Part shown: piece after piece, positions 10,179 through 57,851 of the stretch
How the letters are laid out: the number at the start of each line of letters is the position of its first letter
How positions within the stretch are numbered: the stretch's first letter is position 1
From: an uncultured Sulfurovum sp.
GTDB lineage: Bacteria > Campylobacterota > Campylobacteria > Campylobacterales > Sulfurovaceae
Direction: 5' to 3'
DNA: 64,000 nucleotides
Assembly: GCA_913055205.1 (NCBI GenBank)
Contig: CAJXJN010000005.1
Location: 1-64,000, forward strand
Translations under genes and position numbers: made by a program
Notes under the pieces: model-generated
The model's database searches: none
The model's input: the letters and a program-made list of their open reading frames with translations, nothing else
What the model was told of the DNA's origin: nothing

Positions 10179-10309
10179 GAAGTGGAGACTTCAGTCCCAC
10201 TTAGAATCTATATGCAGTGTATATATTTACGCCAAAAGAAGCATAATTAACAAAGGAATAAATTTTTTTGAGCAAATAAACTTTTGGTGGGACTAAAGTC
10301 TCCACTTCC
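10179..10309. repeat. 131-bp element with inverted REP-like hairpin termini
   Basis: gaagtggagacttcagtcccac (10179-10200) and gtgggactaaagtctccacttcc (10287-10309), inverted; third copy at 42-64. Confidence 0.7.
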
Positions 10310-19959: not shown

Positions 19960-20027
19960 GTAGGGTTGGCTTTAGCCGACCACCTAATATCGCATAATGT
20001 CGTTTGGTCGGCTAAAGCCAACCCTAC
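19960..20027. repeat. REPIN-like inverted repeat with 23-nt perfect arms
   Basis: gtagggttggctttagccgacca (19960-19982) and tggtcggctaaagccaaccctac (20005-20027); each arm is itself near-palindromic. Confidence 0.85.
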
Positions 20028-31801: not shown

Positions 31802-31920
31802 TAGGACCTTTTTTTAATTTTTATCACATTTTCTCACATTTTCTCACAATAACCCTTTTGGCACATCTTTGGCACATCTTAATGTTACAATGAAAATGCG
31901 TAAACAAAAGGAGAATTAAT

Positions 31921-32607
31921 ATGAAAAAGTTTACACTTTCTGTAGTAACGGTTTTGGCAATGAGTACATTTGCAGTAGCAGGTGGAGATATAGTACCAGT
32001 AGTTGAACCGGTAGTGGAGGCGCCGCCACCGGCAGCAAAGACAGGATTCTATGTAGGTGGGGCTATCAGCTTGATTCAGAATGATTTTAGATCTTGGTAT
32101 TATTCTGAGTATTACAATGAAAATCGTACAATGGCGATAGGCAATACGGATCATATAGGAGGGATGCTGCAGGTCGGATATAAATTCAACCCTTATCTCG
32201 CAGTGGAGACACGCTACTGGATCGCAGGGGATGAAGATTGGCAAGATACAGAGAACTGGGGTGATAATGACACGTTTACAACAGAATTTGATGCAATGGG
32301 ACTCTATCTTAAACCTATGTACCCTGTAATGGATGGACTGGATGTCTATGCTTTGCTTGGGTTCGATATTATGAATTATGATTTAACTGCAAAAGATGGG
32401 GATGGTAGTCCATATGCACATCGTAATTTTTCAGACACCGCTTTCTCGTGGGGCCTGGGCGCTTCCTATGCCGTCAATGACTCGCTTGCTGTCTTTGTGG
32501 ACTATGTAAGACTCTATGATGATACGATCCAGGTATTCTATAATAGTGACGTCTTTGCAGATATCACTTCAGATACCTGTAACTTCGGTATTACATACAG
32601 TTTCTAA
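31921..32607 (+). CDS. outer membrane beta-barrel protein, copy 1
   Basis: signal peptide MKKFTLSVVTVLAMSTFAVAGG, C-terminal FGITYSF. Confidence 0.88.
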   Translation: MKKFTLSVVTVLAMSTFAVAGGDIVPVVEPVVEAPPPAAKTGFYVGGAISLIQNDFRSWYYSEYYNENRTMAIGNTDHIGGMLQVGYKFNPYLAVETRYWIAGDEDWQDTENWGDNDTFTTEFDAMGLYLKPMYPVMDGLDVYALLGFDIMNYDLTAKDGDGSPYAHRNFSDTAFSWGLGASYAVNDSLAVFVDYVRLYDDTIQVFYNSDVFADITSDTCNFGITYSF

Positions 32608-32851
32608 AACATTTCTGCCGCATTACGGTGCGGTAGAATTTAAATCGTCTTTTTTGATTATTATGAATTCAGTAAGGTGAATCCTTCTTTCTGCTTGTAC
32701 TCTCTTTAATAAAAATCTTCTTTTGTATTGTCCTTTATATGTTTGTTTGAGATCAAACTTTTTATCACATTTTCTCACAATAACCCTTTTGGCACATCTT
32801 TGGCACATTTCAATGTTACAATGAAATTGCGTAAACAAAAGGAGAATTAAT

Positions 32852-33538
32852 ATGAAAAAGTTTACACTTTCTGTAGTAACGGTTTTGGCAATGAGTACAT
32901 TTGCAGTAGCAGGTGGAGATATAGCACCGGTAGTAGAGCCGGTAGTAGAGGCAACAGCACCGGCAGCAAAAACAGGGTTCTATGTAGGTGGAGCTATCAG
33001 TTCGTTTAAAAATGACTTTAGAGCTCATAGTGGAGGGGATGGTTATGATGACACAATGGCACAAGGAGATACAGACCCTATTGGCGGGATGCTGCAGGTT
33101 GGGTATAAGTTCAATCAATACCTGGCAGTGGAGACGCGTTACTGGCTCGCAGGGGATGAGGAGTGGACAGATCTGGAGAATTGGGGAGATTATCCTTTCA
33201 CAACGGAATTTGATGCAATGGGACTCTACCTTAAACCTATGTATCCGGTAGCGGATGGGCTGGATGTCTATGCTTTGCTTGGGTTTGCCCTTATGAATTA
33301 TGATCTGACTGGAAAATATCCGGATGGTACTCCATATGCACACCGCAATTTCTCGGATACGGCGTTCTCTTACGGAGTGGGAGCTTCATATGCCATCAAT
33401 GATTCATTTTCAGTATTTGCAGACTATGTGAGACTCTATGATGATGATATTAAAGTATTCTTCTACGGTGATGGAGAGTTTGATGCTGGAGAGATTACTT
33501 CTGATACCTTTAACTTCGGTATTACATACAGTTTCTAA
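32852..33538 (+). CDS. outer membrane beta-barrel protein, copy 2
   Basis: signal peptide near-identical to copy 1; diverged loop segments. Confidence 0.88.
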   Translation: MKKFTLSVVTVLAMSTFAVAGGDIAPVVEPVVEATAPAAKTGFYVGGAISSFKNDFRAHSGGDGYDDTMAQGDTDPIGGMLQVGYKFNQYLAVETRYWLAGDEEWTDLENWGDYPFTTEFDAMGLYLKPMYPVADGLDVYALLGFALMNYDLTGKYPDGTPYAHRNFSDTAFSYGVGASYAINDSFSVFADYVRLYDDDIKVFFYGDGEFDAGEITSDTFNFGITYSF

Positions 33539-33713
33539 AACCCTTCTGCCGCATTACGGTGCGGTAGAATTTAAATCGTCTTTTTTAATTATTATGAATG
33601 TAGTAAGGTAAATCCATTTTTACATATAGGTAGATTTTGATACGTAGTCAAATGTATGGCATAGTTATGATTTTTTTAGTAATATGACTGATATCTATAG
33701 TTATTATAATCCT

Positions 33714-49230: not shown

Positions 49231-51108
49231 ATGGAATTGCAATTTTCTTATTATTTGGACCGGATCTCAAAATACAGCGGATATCTAGCAGCCATCCTGG
49301 TAGTTATCCTCTCACTTTTAGTAGCCTATGATGCAGGGATGCGTTACCTGTTCTCTGCCGGCTCCATTGCTTTGCAGGAAGTAGAGTGGCATCTTTTTGA
49401 TGTGATTTTTTTACTTGGTCTTACCTATGCGCTTAAACATGACAAACATGTAAGAGTAGATATTTTCTTTGAGCGTTACAGTCCCGATACAAAATCCATA
49501 GTACAGATACTCTCTATGCTTCTACTTGTTGTGCCTTTTTCACTTTTGTTCTTGAATGATGCGTTTGATATGACGTATCAGAGTTATGTGCAGCATGAAG
49601 TCTCTTCTGATCCCGGGGGATTGACGCATCGTTGGCTCATTAAGGCTATGTTGGTGGTGGCTTTTGTGTTGTTGCTTCTTCAGGCTGTGAGTGAAGTGCT
49701 TAAAGCGTATCATCGGTTAGAGAATAAGATGGCACTCATCAAAACCCTCGTAGGTATAGCCCTTGTGGCTATACTCATTTATATGGCGTGGTTTAACCGT
49801 ATGGCATTTTGGTTTGATCCGGTATTCCTCATGTTCGGTTTGGCTTTGGTTTTACTTATGGCAGGCTTTCAGGTAGCCTTTGTCTTTGCAGGAGTGGCAC
49901 TCTTTTTTGCTCTCATAAGTGATGAAGTAGGCTTGGGAGTACTTGAGATGCTTCCTTACAGGACCTACGGCATTATGGGTAATGTTACGCTGATGGCTGT
50001 ACCGCTTTTTATCTTCATGGGGCTCATTCTTGAAAAGTCCAAGATGGCAGAGAATCTGCTTAGTTCTATGGGGAAACTTTTTGGGCAGGTAAGGGGCGGT
50101 TTAGCTATTTCTGTGGTGCTTGTGGGGGCTATTTTGGCAGCGAGTACAGGTATAGTAGGAGCTTCAGTGGTGATGATGAGCCTTATTGCTCTGCCTTTGA
50201 TGCTGAAACACCATTACTCACCTGCATTGGCTTCAGGGAGTATTGCAGCGAGTGGAACACTGGGACAGCTTATCCCGCCGTCCATCGTCCTCATTGTTCT
50301 GGGTGATCAGATGCACCTTTCTGTGGGTGACCTGTTTAAGGCGGCAGTCGTACCGGGACTGCTGCTTATTATCCTCTACATTATTTATATTTTACTCATT
50401 GCATATTTCAATAAAGAAGTTGCACCTGCTATTGTTTCAGACGAGCCATACGCTAAAGTGGTCAAAGAAGCGGTTAAAGCCATCATCCCGCCGCTTTTAC
50501 TCATAGGGGCAGTGTTGGGGTCGATCTTTGCGGGGATCGCATCTCCTACAGAATCGGCGGCTATTGGGGTGCTTGGAGCTATGGGATTGGCTGTATTTAA
50601 CAGAGCTTTCTCCTTTGATCTTGTGCGTTACGCAAGCATAGAAACCGTTAAGCTCACCGCGATGATCTTCATGATACTCATAGGAGCAACAGCATTCTCA
50701 CTGGTATTTAACGAACTGGGTGGAGGAGACATGGCACTGGAGTTCTTTACAGGAGATATAGGAGACAAATGGACATTCATCCTCATAGCAATGCTTGTCA
50801 TCTTCTTACTGGGATTCTTCATAGACTTTATCGAGATAGCCTTCGTAGTTGTACCTATCTTGGTACCTATCGTGGCATCGTTTGGTATAGACCCGGTATG
50901 GTTTGCCATTCTCATCGCGATGAACCTGCAAGCCTCCTTCCTCACCCCACCTTTTGGATTTGCGTTGTTCTATCTCAAAGGAGCAGCAGGGAACAAGGTG
51001 AGTACGGGAGCTATCTATAGGGGTGTGGTTCCGTTTATCTTGTTGCAAGTGTTGGCGTTGGGGATCATTGTGTTATTCCCGGAACTGATCTATCTGTTTG
51101 GGAAGTAG
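49231..51108 (+). CDS. fused TRAP transporter permease (DctQ-DctM)
   Basis: N-terminal small-permease segment ALQEVEWHLFDVIFLLGLTYALKHDKHVRVD; DctM-like GNVTLMAVPLFIFMGLILEKS. Confidence 0.9.
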   Translation: MELQFSYYLDRISKYSGYLAAILVVILSLLVAYDAGMRYLFSAGSIALQEVEWHLFDVIFLLGLTYALKHDKHVRVDIFFERYSPDTKSIVQILSMLLLVVPFSLLFLNDAFDMTYQSYVQHEVSSDPGGLTHRWLIKAMLVVAFVLLLLQAVSEVLKAYHRLENKMALIKTLVGIALVAILIYMAWFNRMAFWFDPVFLMFGLALVLLMAGFQVAFVFAGVALFFALISDEVGLGVLEMLPYRTYGIMGNVTLMAVPLFIFMGLILEKSKMAENLLSSMGKLFGQVRGGLAISVVLVGAILAASTGIVGASVVMMSLIALPLMLKHHYSPALASGSIAASGTLGQLIPPSIVLIVLGDQMHLSVGDLFKAAVVPGLLLIILYIIYILLIAYFNKEVAPAIVSDEPYAKVVKEAVKAIIPPLLLIGAVLGSIFAGIASPTESAAIGVLGAMGLAVFNRAFSFDLVRYASIETVKLTAMIFMILIGATAFSLVFNELGGGDMALEFFTGDIGDKWTFILIAMLVIFLLGFFIDFIEIAFVVVPILVPIVASFGIDPVWFAILIAMNLQASFLTPPFGFALFYLKGAAGNKVSTGAIYRGVVPFILLQVLALGIIVLFPELIYLFGK

Positions 51109-51150
51109 GTGGGTGCGAGTAGCGTCCAAGACAACGTTTGATTTGAGAAA
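51007..51150 (+). repeat. left copy of direct repeat bracketing AT-rich island (functional TRAP gene 3' end)
   Basis: matches 56505-56631: ccgtttatcttgttgcaagt.ttggc.ttggggatcattgtg...ccggaactgatct.tctgttt.ggaagtag.t. Confidence 0.9.
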
Positions 51151-51268: not shown

Positions 51269-52477
51269 TTATTTAAAGTATAATTTTTCAGTACTACCTT
51301 TACCAAAATATTTTTCATATTCTTGGGCAGCAAATGAGTCCATCATTCCTGATATATAGTCAGTTATAATACGGTCTTTACAATCATGAATTGTTCTTAG
51401 TTCGGCTGGTAATAAAATATTATTTTTATTATATGTTTCATCACTATATACTTCAAATAAACCTCGTATAATTTTTTCTCCTCTTTTTTCATAGAGTTGA
51501 ATATCTTTTTTACGTAATATTGCCTTAAATAATAATTTTTTTAATCCTTCGGCTAATAAAGCATGATTTTTATATCCTAATTCACCACTTACTAAGCCTA
51601 TATCTGAACATAATATATGTACAATTGTAGATGTTAATTCTTTTTTTAATACTATTGAATACTCTTCTGAAGAATTTAAACTATTTGATTTTGATGCTTC
51701 CATTTGAATATTTTTTGTAATATCTATCATTGATTGTAATGCAGAAGTATATTTTTTATTGATTCTAAATTCATGAACAATTTCACCTAGACTTATCATT
51801 CCAAAACTTATTGCATCTTCTAAGTCATGAGCAGCATATGCTATTTCATCTGCTAAATCCATAATTTGAGCATCTATACTTTTTTTTATTGATAGATTAT
51901 TTTTTTGTAATTCATTTGATAGAAACTTATAGTCATCATCATATAAAAACTTTTCAGAATTTTCTTCTTTAGTAAAAAAATATTTTGTTACTGACATTAA
52001 TGTTCTAATATTTAAATTAAGACCTGAATATTTATGGTGTTTTTTTTCTAATGTATTGAGTATTCTAAATGCTTGAGCATTTCCTTCATAACCTCCACAA
52101 TCAGAACTTAATTCATTTAAAACTACTTCTCCATGATGACCAAATGGTGGATTTCCAATATCATGTGCAAGTGCAGCTGTTTCAGTAACAACAGTATCTT
52201 CTAATTCAAGTCCAAAAGCTATTGTTCGTGCAATTTGTGCTACTTCTAAACTATGAGTAAGTCTATTTCGATTAAACTTATTAGCATCAACTCCTAATAA
52301 TTGCATTTTACCTTGCAATCGTCTAAATGATGATGAATATAAAACTCTTGCATAATCCCTCATTAGTATTTGTCTATTATTTGAACGAGTATCATTAGTT
52401 TCATGAATACGATATTCTAAACATTTAATTAACTTTTCTTGTTCTTGTGCATATTCTTTTGTTTCGGTATCATACAT
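51269..52477 (-). CDS. dGTP triphosphohydrolase-like HD-domain protein
   Basis: RNRLTHSLEVAQIARTIA, AHDIGNPPFGHHGE, MDLADEIAYAAHDLEDA. Confidence 0.88.
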   Translation of the reverse strand: MYDTETKEYAQEQEKLIKCLEYRIHETNDTRSNNRQILMRDYARVLYSSSFRRLQGKMQLLGVDANKFNRNRLTHSLEVAQIARTIAFGLELEDTVVTETAALAHDIGNPPFGHHGEVVLNELSSDCGGYEGNAQAFRILNTLEKKHHKYSGLNLNIRTLMSVTKYFFTKEENSEKFLYDDDYKFLSNELQKNNLSIKKSIDAQIMDLADEIAYAAHDLEDAISFGMISLGEIVHEFRINKKYTSALQSMIDITKNIQMEASKSNSLNSSEEYSIVLKKELTSTIVHILCSDIGLVSGELGYKNHALLAEGLKKLLFKAILRKKDIQLYEKRGEKIIRGLFEVYSDETYNKNNILLPAELRTIHDCKDRIITDYISGMMDSFAAQEYEKYFGKGSTEKLYFK

Positions 52478-52606
52478 ATTTATTCCTCATCTATTTGTAG
52501 TTCGTTTTACTTATAACGTTTGAGTTTACCAATAAATGCCTACGAGGCATTTTCCTCGTCCCAAGCTTGGGGACAAGTACTTGATCCTTTTATCTGCGGA
52601 ACCTCT

Positions 52607-52745
52607 CTATTTCAAGTAATCCTTAACACCTTCATAGTCCCTGGAAGAACTATATCTCCAATGTCTAGCTTCATCTACATACCCTCTTTTTACAGGGGTC
52701 TCATGTATATATTGTATCTTATTTATACCCTTAAGGGGCAACCCC
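52607..52745 (-). pseudogene. C-terminal relic of Y1/REP-associated transposase
   Basis: minus-strand frame LKGINKIQYIHETPVKRGYVDEARHWRYSSSRDYEGVKDYLK* parallels KIEYIHQNPVKHGYVDEAIHWRYSSARDYHGEEG of the intact gene. Confidence 0.85.
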
Positions 52746-54102: not shown

Positions 54103-54245
54103 AGGGTCAGGTAACAAACCACAAACAAAATAAAAAATGCTATACTTACACAATTATAGAGGAGTGACAGATGGCAAGAAGAGCAAGAGTTGATCTTGAT
54201 GGATTTCATCATATTGTTAACAGTGGGGTGGCATGAATAATAGGT
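54103..54245 (+). repeat. 143-bp near-identical repeat, copy 1, carrying a truncated transposase start
   Basis: agggtcaggtaacaaaccac...atggcaagaagagcaagagttgatcttgatggatttcatcatattgttaacagtggggtggcatga; second copy 56124-56266. Confidence 0.95.
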
Positions 54246-54250
54246 GTTTT

Positions 54251-54992
54251 CTCGTTCCACCTCTCCGCAGGTGGAATGCATAGGCAATTCCAACATAGTC
54301 CTCATCATAAAAAGTCTACCAAAATCTATCAATCCCTATTAACCCTTCTTCTCCATGATAGTCTCTGGCACTGGAATACCTCCAGTGTATAGCTTCATCT
54401 ACATAGCCATGTTTTACAGGGTTTTGATGTATATACTCTATCTTACTTTTTAACATGAGATCATTCTGCATTAGTTTTGGCTGATATCCTTCTTCCCATA
54501 CTTGGAATGTCTTCTCTTTCCTGTGAGCCTTTTTATAAAAAGATAACTGATCCAATAAGGTAGTGACATTTTCTTTATGCAATAGTTTTAAAATCTCAAC
54601 CGCAGTAAATTTTTTAAAAGATTCCATACTCTTTTGTAAATCATCACTGCGTAATACCATATGCAAGTGGTTTTCAAGTATGACATAAGCGTGTAGTTTT
54701 AAGTTGTCCTGCTTCTGTAAGAATTTGAGACAATTCAATACAATATCTACACTCTCTTTTCTTGTAAATATGGGTAACCAGTGTAAGATAGTACAGGTTA
54801 CAAAATGTGGATGTGTCGGTTCAATTATTTTGTATCTACTTCTGCCCATGATTACTCTTTTTTGTTTATTGTAGTAGAATTTAGAGGTGTAGAGTGATTA
54901 TATGTCAGATTGTAATATTTTTAGCCATATCATATTGAGGATAACGTTATGACTGGCCTATACATTCCACCTACGGAGAGGTGGAACGAGAG
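54251..54992 (-). mobile_element. Y1 transposase (RAYT-like) unit with inverted hairpin ends
   Basis: ctcgttccacctctccgcaggtggaatgcatagg at left, inverted cctatacattccacctacggagaggtggaacgagag at right, each forming TTCCACCT-loop-AGGTGGAA. Confidence 0.85.
54316..54849 (-). CDS. REP-associated/IS200-like Y1 transposase
   Basis: HUH-type NHLHMVL, catalytic-helix KIEYIHQNPVKHGYV. Confidence 0.92.
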   Translation of the reverse strand: MGRSRYKIIEPTHPHFVTCTILHWLPIFTRKESVDIVLNCLKFLQKQDNLKLHAYVILENHLHMVLRSDDLQKSMESFKKFTAVEILKLLHKENVTTLLDQLSFYKKAHRKEKTFQVWEEGYQPKLMQNDLMLKSKIEYIHQNPVKHGYVDEAIHWRYSSARDYHGEEGLIGIDRFW

Positions 54993-56009: not shown

Positions 56010-56123
56010 GTAATTCCTTCAACTAACGGGTGCGCTGAACACCATTCAGTATGATATCAGAAAATCACGTAGTGTTTTCTGGGAGCATACTTAATGTGTA
56101 AACTTTTGAACTTTAGAAACTTT

Positions 56124-56290
56124 AGGGTCAGGTAACAAACCACAAACAAAATAAAAAATGCTATACTTACACAATTATAGAGGAGTGACAGATGGCAAGA
56201 AGAGCAAGAGTTGATCTTGATGGATTTCATCATATTGTTAACAGTGGGGTGGCATAAATAATAGGTATTAGTGATTTGTTACCTGACCCT
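56124..56290 (+). mobile_element. 167-bp MITE-like element: 143-bp repeat copy 2 bounded by 16-nt inverted repeats
   Basis: agggtcaggtaacaaa (56124-56139) and tttgttacctgaccct (56275-56290); internal MARRARVDLDGFHHIVNSGVA* fragment. Confidence 0.85.
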
Positions 56291-56316
56291 AATTTTTGCT
56301 AATTTTCTACCCTCTT

Positions 56317-56465
56317 TTTACAGAGTTCTCATGTATATATTGTATCTTATTTGTCATCATAGCATCTGTTTGCATCAGCTGAGGATGAAATACTTATAGC
56401 TATTTCTTCCCATAGATGAAGTGTATCATTTTTTTATTTCATTATGAGCTTTTTGGGGACGAGGA
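56317..56465 (-). pseudogene. further-degraded relic of Y1 transposase 3' region and flank
   Basis: matches 52680-52860 (ctctttttacag...catgtatatattgtatctta...gcatcagctgaggatgaaatac...ttcattatgagctttttggg). Confidence 0.8.
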
Positions 56466-56504
56466 ATAACTTTGAATTTGGTTTGAAAATTTGGTGCAGG
56501 TCAG

Positions 56505-56631
56505 GGGGCTATCTACAGGGGGGTGTTGTACCGTTTATCTTGTTGCAAGTATTGGCTTTGGGGATCATTGTGATGTTTCCGGAACTGATCTGTCTGTTTT
56601 GGAAGTAGATGTGTGCGAGAAACGTTTGATA
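56505..56631 (+). pseudogene. right copy of TRAP permease 3' end, decayed
   Basis: about 125 bp similar to 51007-51150 with a 2-nt insertion and several substitutions. Confidence 0.9.
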
Positions 56632-56657: not shown

Positions 56658-57851
56658 TTAGACCATTAACCCAAAGAGCCACATAGGTATCTTGTTTGTC
56701 TCCATCGTGTAATCTGTATCTACTACAACATAACTATGTGGTAAATCTTTTATTTGTTTAAAAGATTTATTTTTTCCACCTATCTCAAAAATGTGTTCGC
56801 CAACTCTGAAATCACCAATATCACTGTAGTAAATGTTCTCAAAGCAAGATGCAAAAAAAGTTTCACGTACTGTACCTATATCTACTTCTATGCTAAATTC
56901 ATCGGCATAGGTATAGAGTATATTAGTATTTGAAAAGAGAAGTTTTTCGGGTTTTTTGGAGATATTTGTTGAGAATTTTCGTATAGGACGGATGATTTTT
57001 GTCTCCTCTAAAATATTTATGTAGGTAGCCAAAGTAGGATGTGAAACTCCAAACTCTTTGCATAAAGCAGTAATATTGACTTTATAAGGTACGCGGGAGT
57101 AGATAAGTTTTGCTATGAACTTTTTGAAAATACTTAAGTGTGTATAGTCTATTTTATTGAGAGAAGGAATATCTTCTGCAATAATTTTGTCAAGGGCATT
57201 AAAAAGTTTGTTTTTGTATTCCACTTCATCTTCTATGAAAAACGGATAAAAACCAATTTGTAAATATTTTAAAAAGTTTTTGTAAAGTTCAGGGTTTTCC
57301 AGGGCTAAGGTAGAAGAGAGTTCAGACGCATTGCTGAGTATTTCATCCAGCGTTAAAGTGGGCAGTATGATATCTGCTGAGAGCTTAAGGTACTCTCTAA
57401 AGCTCAGAGGTGTTACATAGGAGATAACAGCACGTCTGCTTAAATCATACTTTTCATTAAGTATATTGAGCATCGAACTTCCTGAAAATCGTACCAAAAG
57501 GTCAGGAAAAGAGTCGTAGATGCTTTTAAGTTCTAAAGCCCAGTTCTTATACTTATGTATCTCATCTATGACTATAACCTTCCCACCCAAGCGTACAAAC
57601 TCTGTTGCAATGTCATAGATGGAGCTGTTTATGATGTAAATATCATCTGCAGAAAAGTAGAGATACTCTGTGGCTTTAAAGTTTTGTTTTAGGTATTGCA
57701 GGAGTAGGGTAGTTTTACCTACACCCCGTTGTCCTATCAGACCAACCAAGCGATTTTTAGAGATGAGCTTTCCTAAATATTTGTCACGTGTAAAGTTTAA
57801 AGAGATGGAAGATATAAGTCTTATTTGTTTATTTTGTATATACTTTATCAT
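56658..57851 (-). CDS. AAA+ ATPase with DUF4143-type C-terminal domain
   Basis: LIGQRGVGKTTLLLQYL Walker A, VIVIDEIHKYKNW, C-terminal winged-helix/nuclease-like region. Confidence 0.88.
   Translation of the reverse strand: MIKYIQNKQIRLISSISLNFTRDKYLGKLISKNRLVGLIGQRGVGKTTLLLQYLKQNFKATEYLYFSADDIYIINSSIYDIATEFVRLGGKVIVIDEIHKYKNWALELKSIYDSFPDLLVRFSGSSMLNILNEKYDLSRRAVISYVTPLSFREYLKLSADIILPTLTLDEILSNASELSSTLALENPELYKNFLKYLQIGFYPFFIEDEVEYKNKLFNALDKIIAEDIPSLNKIDYTHLSIFKKFIAKLIYSRVPYKVNITALCKEFGVSHPTLATYINILEETKIIRPIRKFSTNISKKPEKLLFSNTNILYTYADEFSIEVDIGTVRETFFASCFENIYYSDIGDFRVGEHIFEIGGKNKSFKQIKDLPHSYVVVDTDYTMETNKIPMWLFGLMV

Follow-up and report, generated by a model that had tools for sequence, protein, structure and literature searches.

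The element described here is very probably a self-contained RAYT-type single-strand transposon, in which an HUH-Y1 gene of subclass 2.6 (group 5) lies between two outward-facing REPs of its own. It was found in a window of 64,000 nucleotides, the whole stretch of DNA analysed, from a Sulfurovum-type MAG (1.66 Mb, 86% complete, 47 contigs). The gene and its two REPs form a compact unit (Table 1), its stems co-vary, its boundaries fall at the REP heads and copies of it occupy different sites.

Table 1. Coordinates of the REP-RAYT-REP element and of neighbouring features in the window
Feature	Position	Strand	Remarks
Whole REP-RAYT-REP element	54251..54990	-	740 bp, REP head to REP head; from homology with L039
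REP downstream of RAYT gene, CTCGTTCCACCTCTCCGCAGGTGGAATGCATA	54251..54282	+	
RAYT (TnpA-REP) gene	54316..54849	-	177 aa, intact ORF
REP upstream of RAYT gene, CTCGTTCCACCTCTCCGTAGGTGGAATGTATA	54959..54990	-	
Direct repeat copy 1, MITE-like, ends GGGTCAGGTAACAAA	54089..54248	+	160 bp; cut 2 nt before REP head
Direct repeat copy 2	56112..56269	+	96% identical to copy 1; runs on to inverted end 56268-56297
TRAP transporter gene (DctM-like, named from sequence)	49231..51108	+	Left border of variable cargo region
dGTPase-like gene, cargo	51269..52477	-	PADLOC dGTPase, 3e-109
RAYT remnant, residues about 134-172	52600..52726	-	
Two adjacent ORFs, 143 and 172 aa	53114..54064	+	Conserved in G063
RAYT remnant, residues about 122-149	56307..56390	-	Near duplicated dctM-like tail
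Displaced 122-bp copy of dctM-like 3' end	56504..56625	+	86% identical to 51006-51125

The two ends of the element are inverted copies of one another. The arms (54250-54290 and 54951-54991) are 41 nt long and 90% complementary, confirming the inverted hairpin copies that had been predicted around the Y1 gene, and each contains the hairpin TTCCACCT-N6-AGGTGGAA (54255-54276 and 54965-54986). With up to three mismatches allowed, this pattern occurs at just these two sites in the window, where shuffling gives an expectation of 0.21, and single-stranded DNA folding of the two hairpins yields z scores of -3.1 and -5.8. Each REP is built from a near-invariant head, CTCGTTCC, and foot, GGAATGCA, around an element-specific stem of 4-5 bp. 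The GT[AG]G foot that is a trait of GTAG REPtrons is absent; the head is CTCG. Homology to a relative, L039 (86.5% over 741 nt), begins and ends at the window heads (-1/0 nt). Rfam at gathering threshold returned no match between 50 and 58 kb, nor did a literature search on the REP sequence itself.

The original prediction of an intact Y1 gene holds, except that its product has 177 residues and not 178. The protein matches the NCBIfam model NF047646 (REP_Tyr_transpos, the REP-associated tyrosine transposase or RAYT family) with 97 bits against a cut-off of 80, and scores 18.8 bits with Pfam Y1_Tnp, under the 23-bit cut-off. The crystal structure of an E. coli RAYT-REP complex (4er8) was matched by sequence (E 1e-4) and ranked first (E 7e-7) in a fold search with the AlphaFold2 model of the protein (pLDDT 79), followed by the ISDra2 and IS608 transposases. 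The NF047646 match and the top-ranked fold support the predicted RAYT with cognate REPs. The HUH motif is H61-L-H63, and Y139, which aligns to Y115 of 4er8, is assigned as the catalytic tyrosine from that alignment. H61, H63 and Y139 are invariant across an alignment of 47 proteins, as is N143, the single Tyr standing in a Y---NP context. Its length of 177 aa, its NHLH and YIHQNP motifs and the non-GTAG ends with a CTCGTTCC head are all traits of subclass 2.6. Judged by published motifs and length, the RAYT fits this subclass (Bertels group 5) and is provisionally assigned to it, with one departure: WE replaces the WQ of the published subclass 2.6 table, WQ also being the family consensus here.

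A classical IS200/IS605 insertion sequence would share the fold class, ISDra2 and IS608 standing at ranks 2 and below, as well as the mobile behaviour described below. We nevertheless regard this identification as very improbable. The tyrosine motif is Y-I-H-Q-N-P (class 2), not Y---Q; the NCBIfam match is to the RAYT model, whereas the IS200 model NF033573 is unmatched by the window protein and gives its paralogue on contig C33 no more than 13 of 55 bits; and the element is bounded by inverted copies of a REP that is dispersed.

In the host family, 54 of 175 genomes contain relatives of this RAYT (E <= 1e-20); the closest named ones are those of Sulfurovum sp. AR (93%) and of further Sulfurovum genomes. 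Scanning GTDB genome contigs added Sulfurimonas, Sulfuricurvum, Arcobacter and Nitratifractor, together with the gammaproteobacteria Thiomicrospira and Methylobacter. Six plasmid records carry relatives, the best (56%) on a Salinivibrio replicon, and the viral contigs and phage records searched contained none.

The REP is dispersed through the host genome, as counted by genome searches and fetched stretches of this incomplete MAG. The exact stem occurs at four sites, namely the two RAYT flanks, C8:73872 and C11:640, so that confinement of the hairpin to the two flanks, named beforehand as grounds for rejecting a RAYT, does not hold. A longer pattern with up to three mismatches gives nine matches genome-wide and none when reversed, and exposes hairpins whose stem changes are compensated, for example CCATCT...AGATGG. 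At the same tolerance, the head/foot pattern CTCGTTCC-N14-GGAATGCATA gives 18 matches against one for its reversed control. Besides the RAYT itself, five loci among the 18 are head-out pairs (REPINs), and overlap with ORFs of at least 110 aa is limited to one site on C15 and a doubtful one on C32. A genome-wide count had been proposed as the check on a RAYT/REP reading; its outcome, further hairpins and head-out pairs lying almost entirely outside long ORFs, bears that reading out. These short head-out pairs are gene-less versions of the RAYT unit, and the stems of their two members frequently differ. At about 20 copies the family is small, far under classical REP families.

Because exact, compensated and head/foot matches all occur elsewhere, the hairpin represents one of the stem types of a head/foot family and is not an isolated structure. 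The suggestion that it defines a family of its own is therefore only partly right: the ACCT stem is particular to elements of this type, but the head and foot occur with many other stem types in the host and in other genomes. The hairpin was also found in genomes that lack the transposase, a finding named in advance as contrary to a RAYT, in 7 of 17 hairpin-bearing genomes. It is enriched with the RAYT (10 of 54 RAYT genomes versus 7 of 121 without; Fisher p = 0.011), and REPs are already known to persist after RAYT loss (PMC6006769).

Within an element, the two stems match each other. We compared 86 full-length elements from Campylobacterota and a few gammaproteobacteria, several of them from MAGs, with the hairpin on each side called by motif and chosen independently. 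A head/foot hairpin is present at both ends in 77 of them; the 4-5 inner stem bases vary between elements, and head and foot are near-invariant. Among 57 non-redundant elements the left and right inner sequences are identical in 23 and within one edit in 41, whereas random pairing of ends gives on average 1.0 identical and at most 6 (permutation, 57 elements). The mean edit distance between the stems of one element is 1.58, against 5.89 at random. The ends are thus not drifting independently, since they lie 1.6 edits apart when those of different elements lie 5.9 apart. Some elements do have unlike ends (for example L060, L061, L246 and L265). Stem distance also tracks that between the proteins (Mantel r 0.70, against a permutation maximum of 0.14). 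REP-RAYT coevolution was reported earlier for GTAG REPs (PMC2817692), and these sequences extend it to a non-GTAG REP.

Within hairpins, 99% of stem cells are paired across 24 distinct hairpins, and 48 stem cells are doubly changed compared with 16.9 after shuffling; none of 500 shuffles reached 48. This covariation is supportive only, because the hairpins were partly selected for pairing, and the matching between ends is the stronger result. The matched stems moreover provide ready pairs for specificity assays. Ordinary transcription terminators around an unrelated gene would likewise be stable hairpins near gene ends, as both of these are. Such terminators, however, would account neither for a head and foot conserved outside the stem across genera, nor for a stem type common to both ends of an element, nor for the same head and foot in dispersed head-out pairs, and of the explanations weighed here we give this one the least credence.

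RAYTs are the textbook bacterial domesticated transposase. In the published view (PMC2817692, PMC8266576, PMC6006769) the gene is inherited vertically, is itself immobile and moves only REPs and REPINs. None of these three papers, among them Nunvar et al., reports evidence for RAYT mobility, and both Quentin et al. 2018 and Corneloup et al. 2021 say explicitly that there is none. Differences in position would then arise by recombination and by horizontal transfer of larger pieces. The few copies per genome agree with this, as do two same-genus pairs (L066/L128 and L054/L067) in which one flank is orthologous and continues for about 390-400 nt. Since the flank continues in these pairs, the homology method does detect orthologous sites.

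Several observations nonetheless make an immobile RAYT improbable. In 43 pairs of elements at least 80% identical, the ends of homology cluster about 8 nt or less from the heads, and in many pairs the homology blocks stop there; in several, homology breaks off inside the upstream region and not at the head. Two genomes each hold two near-identical copies with unrelated flanks (92.5% identity in G123, 98.5% in G171). In G171 each copy is interrupted by an in-frame stop; at least one of them, once inactivated, was therefore not moved by the protein it encodes. In the host genome itself, C11:636-785 matches the window element over its initial 151 nt at 95% identity and starts exactly at the head, this truncated copy interrupting a TIR-like gene fragment (C11:540-785; L006). 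No empty site is available for this copy because the 5' fragment of the TIR-like gene, searched with a few guessed residues added, has no relative in the family. Close relatives also carry different elements beside the same ORFs: in G063, whose dctM product is 96% identical, the two ORFs to the left of the window element are conserved (95-98% aa) and are adjoined by a different RAYT element with ATATC stems in the opposite orientation. Finally, G137 carries a 5.3-kb insertion whose end lies no more than 4 nt from the RAYT head; G138, with flanks 92-98% identical, has the empty site.

As expected of a mobile element, copies thus lie at several sites and share a sharp boundary. The joined flanks of 11 elements, sought in 175 genomes, gave one-sided matches and no clean both-sided empty site for a bare element of 740 bp; flanks are usually rearranged further. 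From these comparisons the gene and hairpins appear to have moved together as one unit, and the subclass 2.6 type would in this respect differ from the published no-mobility view.

We also scanned 41 elements with larger flanks (862 kb) for direct repeats. Only 35 repeats between 45 and 400 nt in length were present, yet at four loci one copy terminates no more than 2 nt from a REP head, where roughly 0.07 would be expected (Poisson): the window (160 bp), G108 (127 bp), G163 (77 bp) and G010 (229 bp). Another locus, G006 (L279), is a variant of this pattern. In three of the four the repeated sequence corresponds to the 3' end of a housekeeping gene, which remains intact on the far side, the RAYT adjoining the displaced tail. 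The duplicated tails, named from protein sequences, belong to PBP2/mrdA-like (G108), gatB (G163) and prfA genes, the prfA repeat starting at the stop codon; in G100 the PBP2 locus is uninterrupted. Behind PBP2, the G108 cargo (L277 5197-11636) consists of a DUF4279 gene and genes for RHS repeat proteins, one of which has an Ntox33 domain. The G163 cargo (L290 7641-9866), between gatB and its displaced tail with the RAYT at the edge, comprises a retron-type reverse transcriptase near PADLOC RT_III-A (7e-68) and a 330-aa partner ORF. The G010 cargo is a small ORF. The repeat in the window can also be read as simply two copies of a MITE.

It is conceivable, if rather doubtful, that Sulfurovaceae RAYT units, besides moving themselves, mark one border of larger, one-ended insertions of 1.2-7.4 kb that carry defence or antagonism genes. 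Such insertions would leave a 77-229 bp direct target duplication, often of a housekeeping 3' end, with the host gene intact; the REP head would fix one end precisely, and a second cut or repair would set the other. No tail duplication was found at 14 further RAYTs, most on short contigs and few with 9 kb on both sides. Three unproven routes to the edge duplications are one-ended RAYT insertion in which repair captures a second end, integration of circles by the Campbell route through a shared gene tail, and RAYT nicking leading to a break that captures DNA. Truncated copies that end precisely at a REP on one side and break off internally on the other (L313 11000-11231, L300 10787-10918 and L304 7507-7584) are reminiscent of one-ended events. 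Literature searches gave no match for RAYT with retron and nothing specific among the top results for RAYT with defence or island. Were the edge-of-island pattern causal, RAYTs would be a route for installing defence cargo behind housekeeping genes.

The surroundings of the window element are themselves variable. The dctM-like gene, matched (E <= 1e-200) in 20 of 41 genomes searched, its own included, and the displaced copy of its tail flank about 5.4 kb of cargo that includes the dGTPase gene and the RAYT remnants. In G074 a moxR-like gene follows dctM almost directly, and because the two are nearly adjacent there, the window region is an insertion hotspot. The MITE-like element (54103-54248 and 56124-56297) has GGGTCAGGTAACAAA inverted ends and encodes only the N terminus of another Y1 transposase (MARRARVDLDGFHHIVN). 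The idea that this MITE has its missing end in the right flank of the window element is not convincing (alignment p = 0.02 versus window positions, 0.13 versus shuffles). An AAA_14/DUF4143 ATPase with a PADLOC PDC-S01 match lies in the same variable region (56658-57851).

Other repeats were noted elsewhere in the window. A repeat/hairpin family, GTGGGACTNAAGTCTCCACTTC, is present at 15-64, 10179-10215 and 10260-10309, with related sequence at the end of contig C8. A perfect 23-nt inverted repeat with a 22-nt spacer, GTAGGGTTGGCTTTAGCCGACCA (19960-20027), is possibly a GTAG-type REP pair. At 31826-33621 an outer-membrane-protein-like gene is tandemly duplicated (31921-32607 and 32852-33538), upstream region included.

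By analogy with the IS200/IS605 and TnpA-REP literatures, the RAYT protein would bind each REP as folded single-stranded DNA, and Y139 with the H61/H63 metal site would cut beside the REP head. The unit could then be excised and pasted at a replication fork or other single-stranded DNA. If true, such a RAYT lineage, still mobile together with the REPs that bound it, would represent a stage between IS200/IS605 transposons and REPtrons that are immobile.

Among known systems, TnpA-REP/RAYT subclass 2.6 (group 5) is alike in length (177 aa against a median of 179), in its NHLH and YIHQNP motifs and in being flanked by non-GTAG 'atypical' secondary structures that recur in other parts of the genome (PMC6006769). 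That survey placed the subclass mainly in Bacteroidetes and described no mobility, whereas the elements here come from Campylobacterota and some gammaproteobacteria and change position, and their REP is now defined as CTCGTTCC-stem-GGAATGCA. The GTAG REPtrons of E. coli, Pseudomonas and Stenotrophomonas (groups 2 and 3) share a RAYT between inverted REPs, REP-RAYT coevolution and REP pairs elsewhere (PMC2817692, PMC3733652); the window type differs in its CTCG(TT) head in place of GT[AG]G, in having tens rather than hundreds of REPs and in that the unit itself appears to move. IS200/IS605 elements (IS608, ISDra2) have the HUH-Y1 fold, hairpin ends and a mobile unit in common with it, but the window ends are true inverted copies, the active-site motif is class 2 and the unit is without tnpB. 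REPINs (PMC3116915) likewise consist of two REPs with heads outward that move as a unit, and differ from the window unit in that the latter has a transposase gene inside. If the unit does move, autonomous and gene-less forms exist side by side, and the way in which REPINs spread would become testable.
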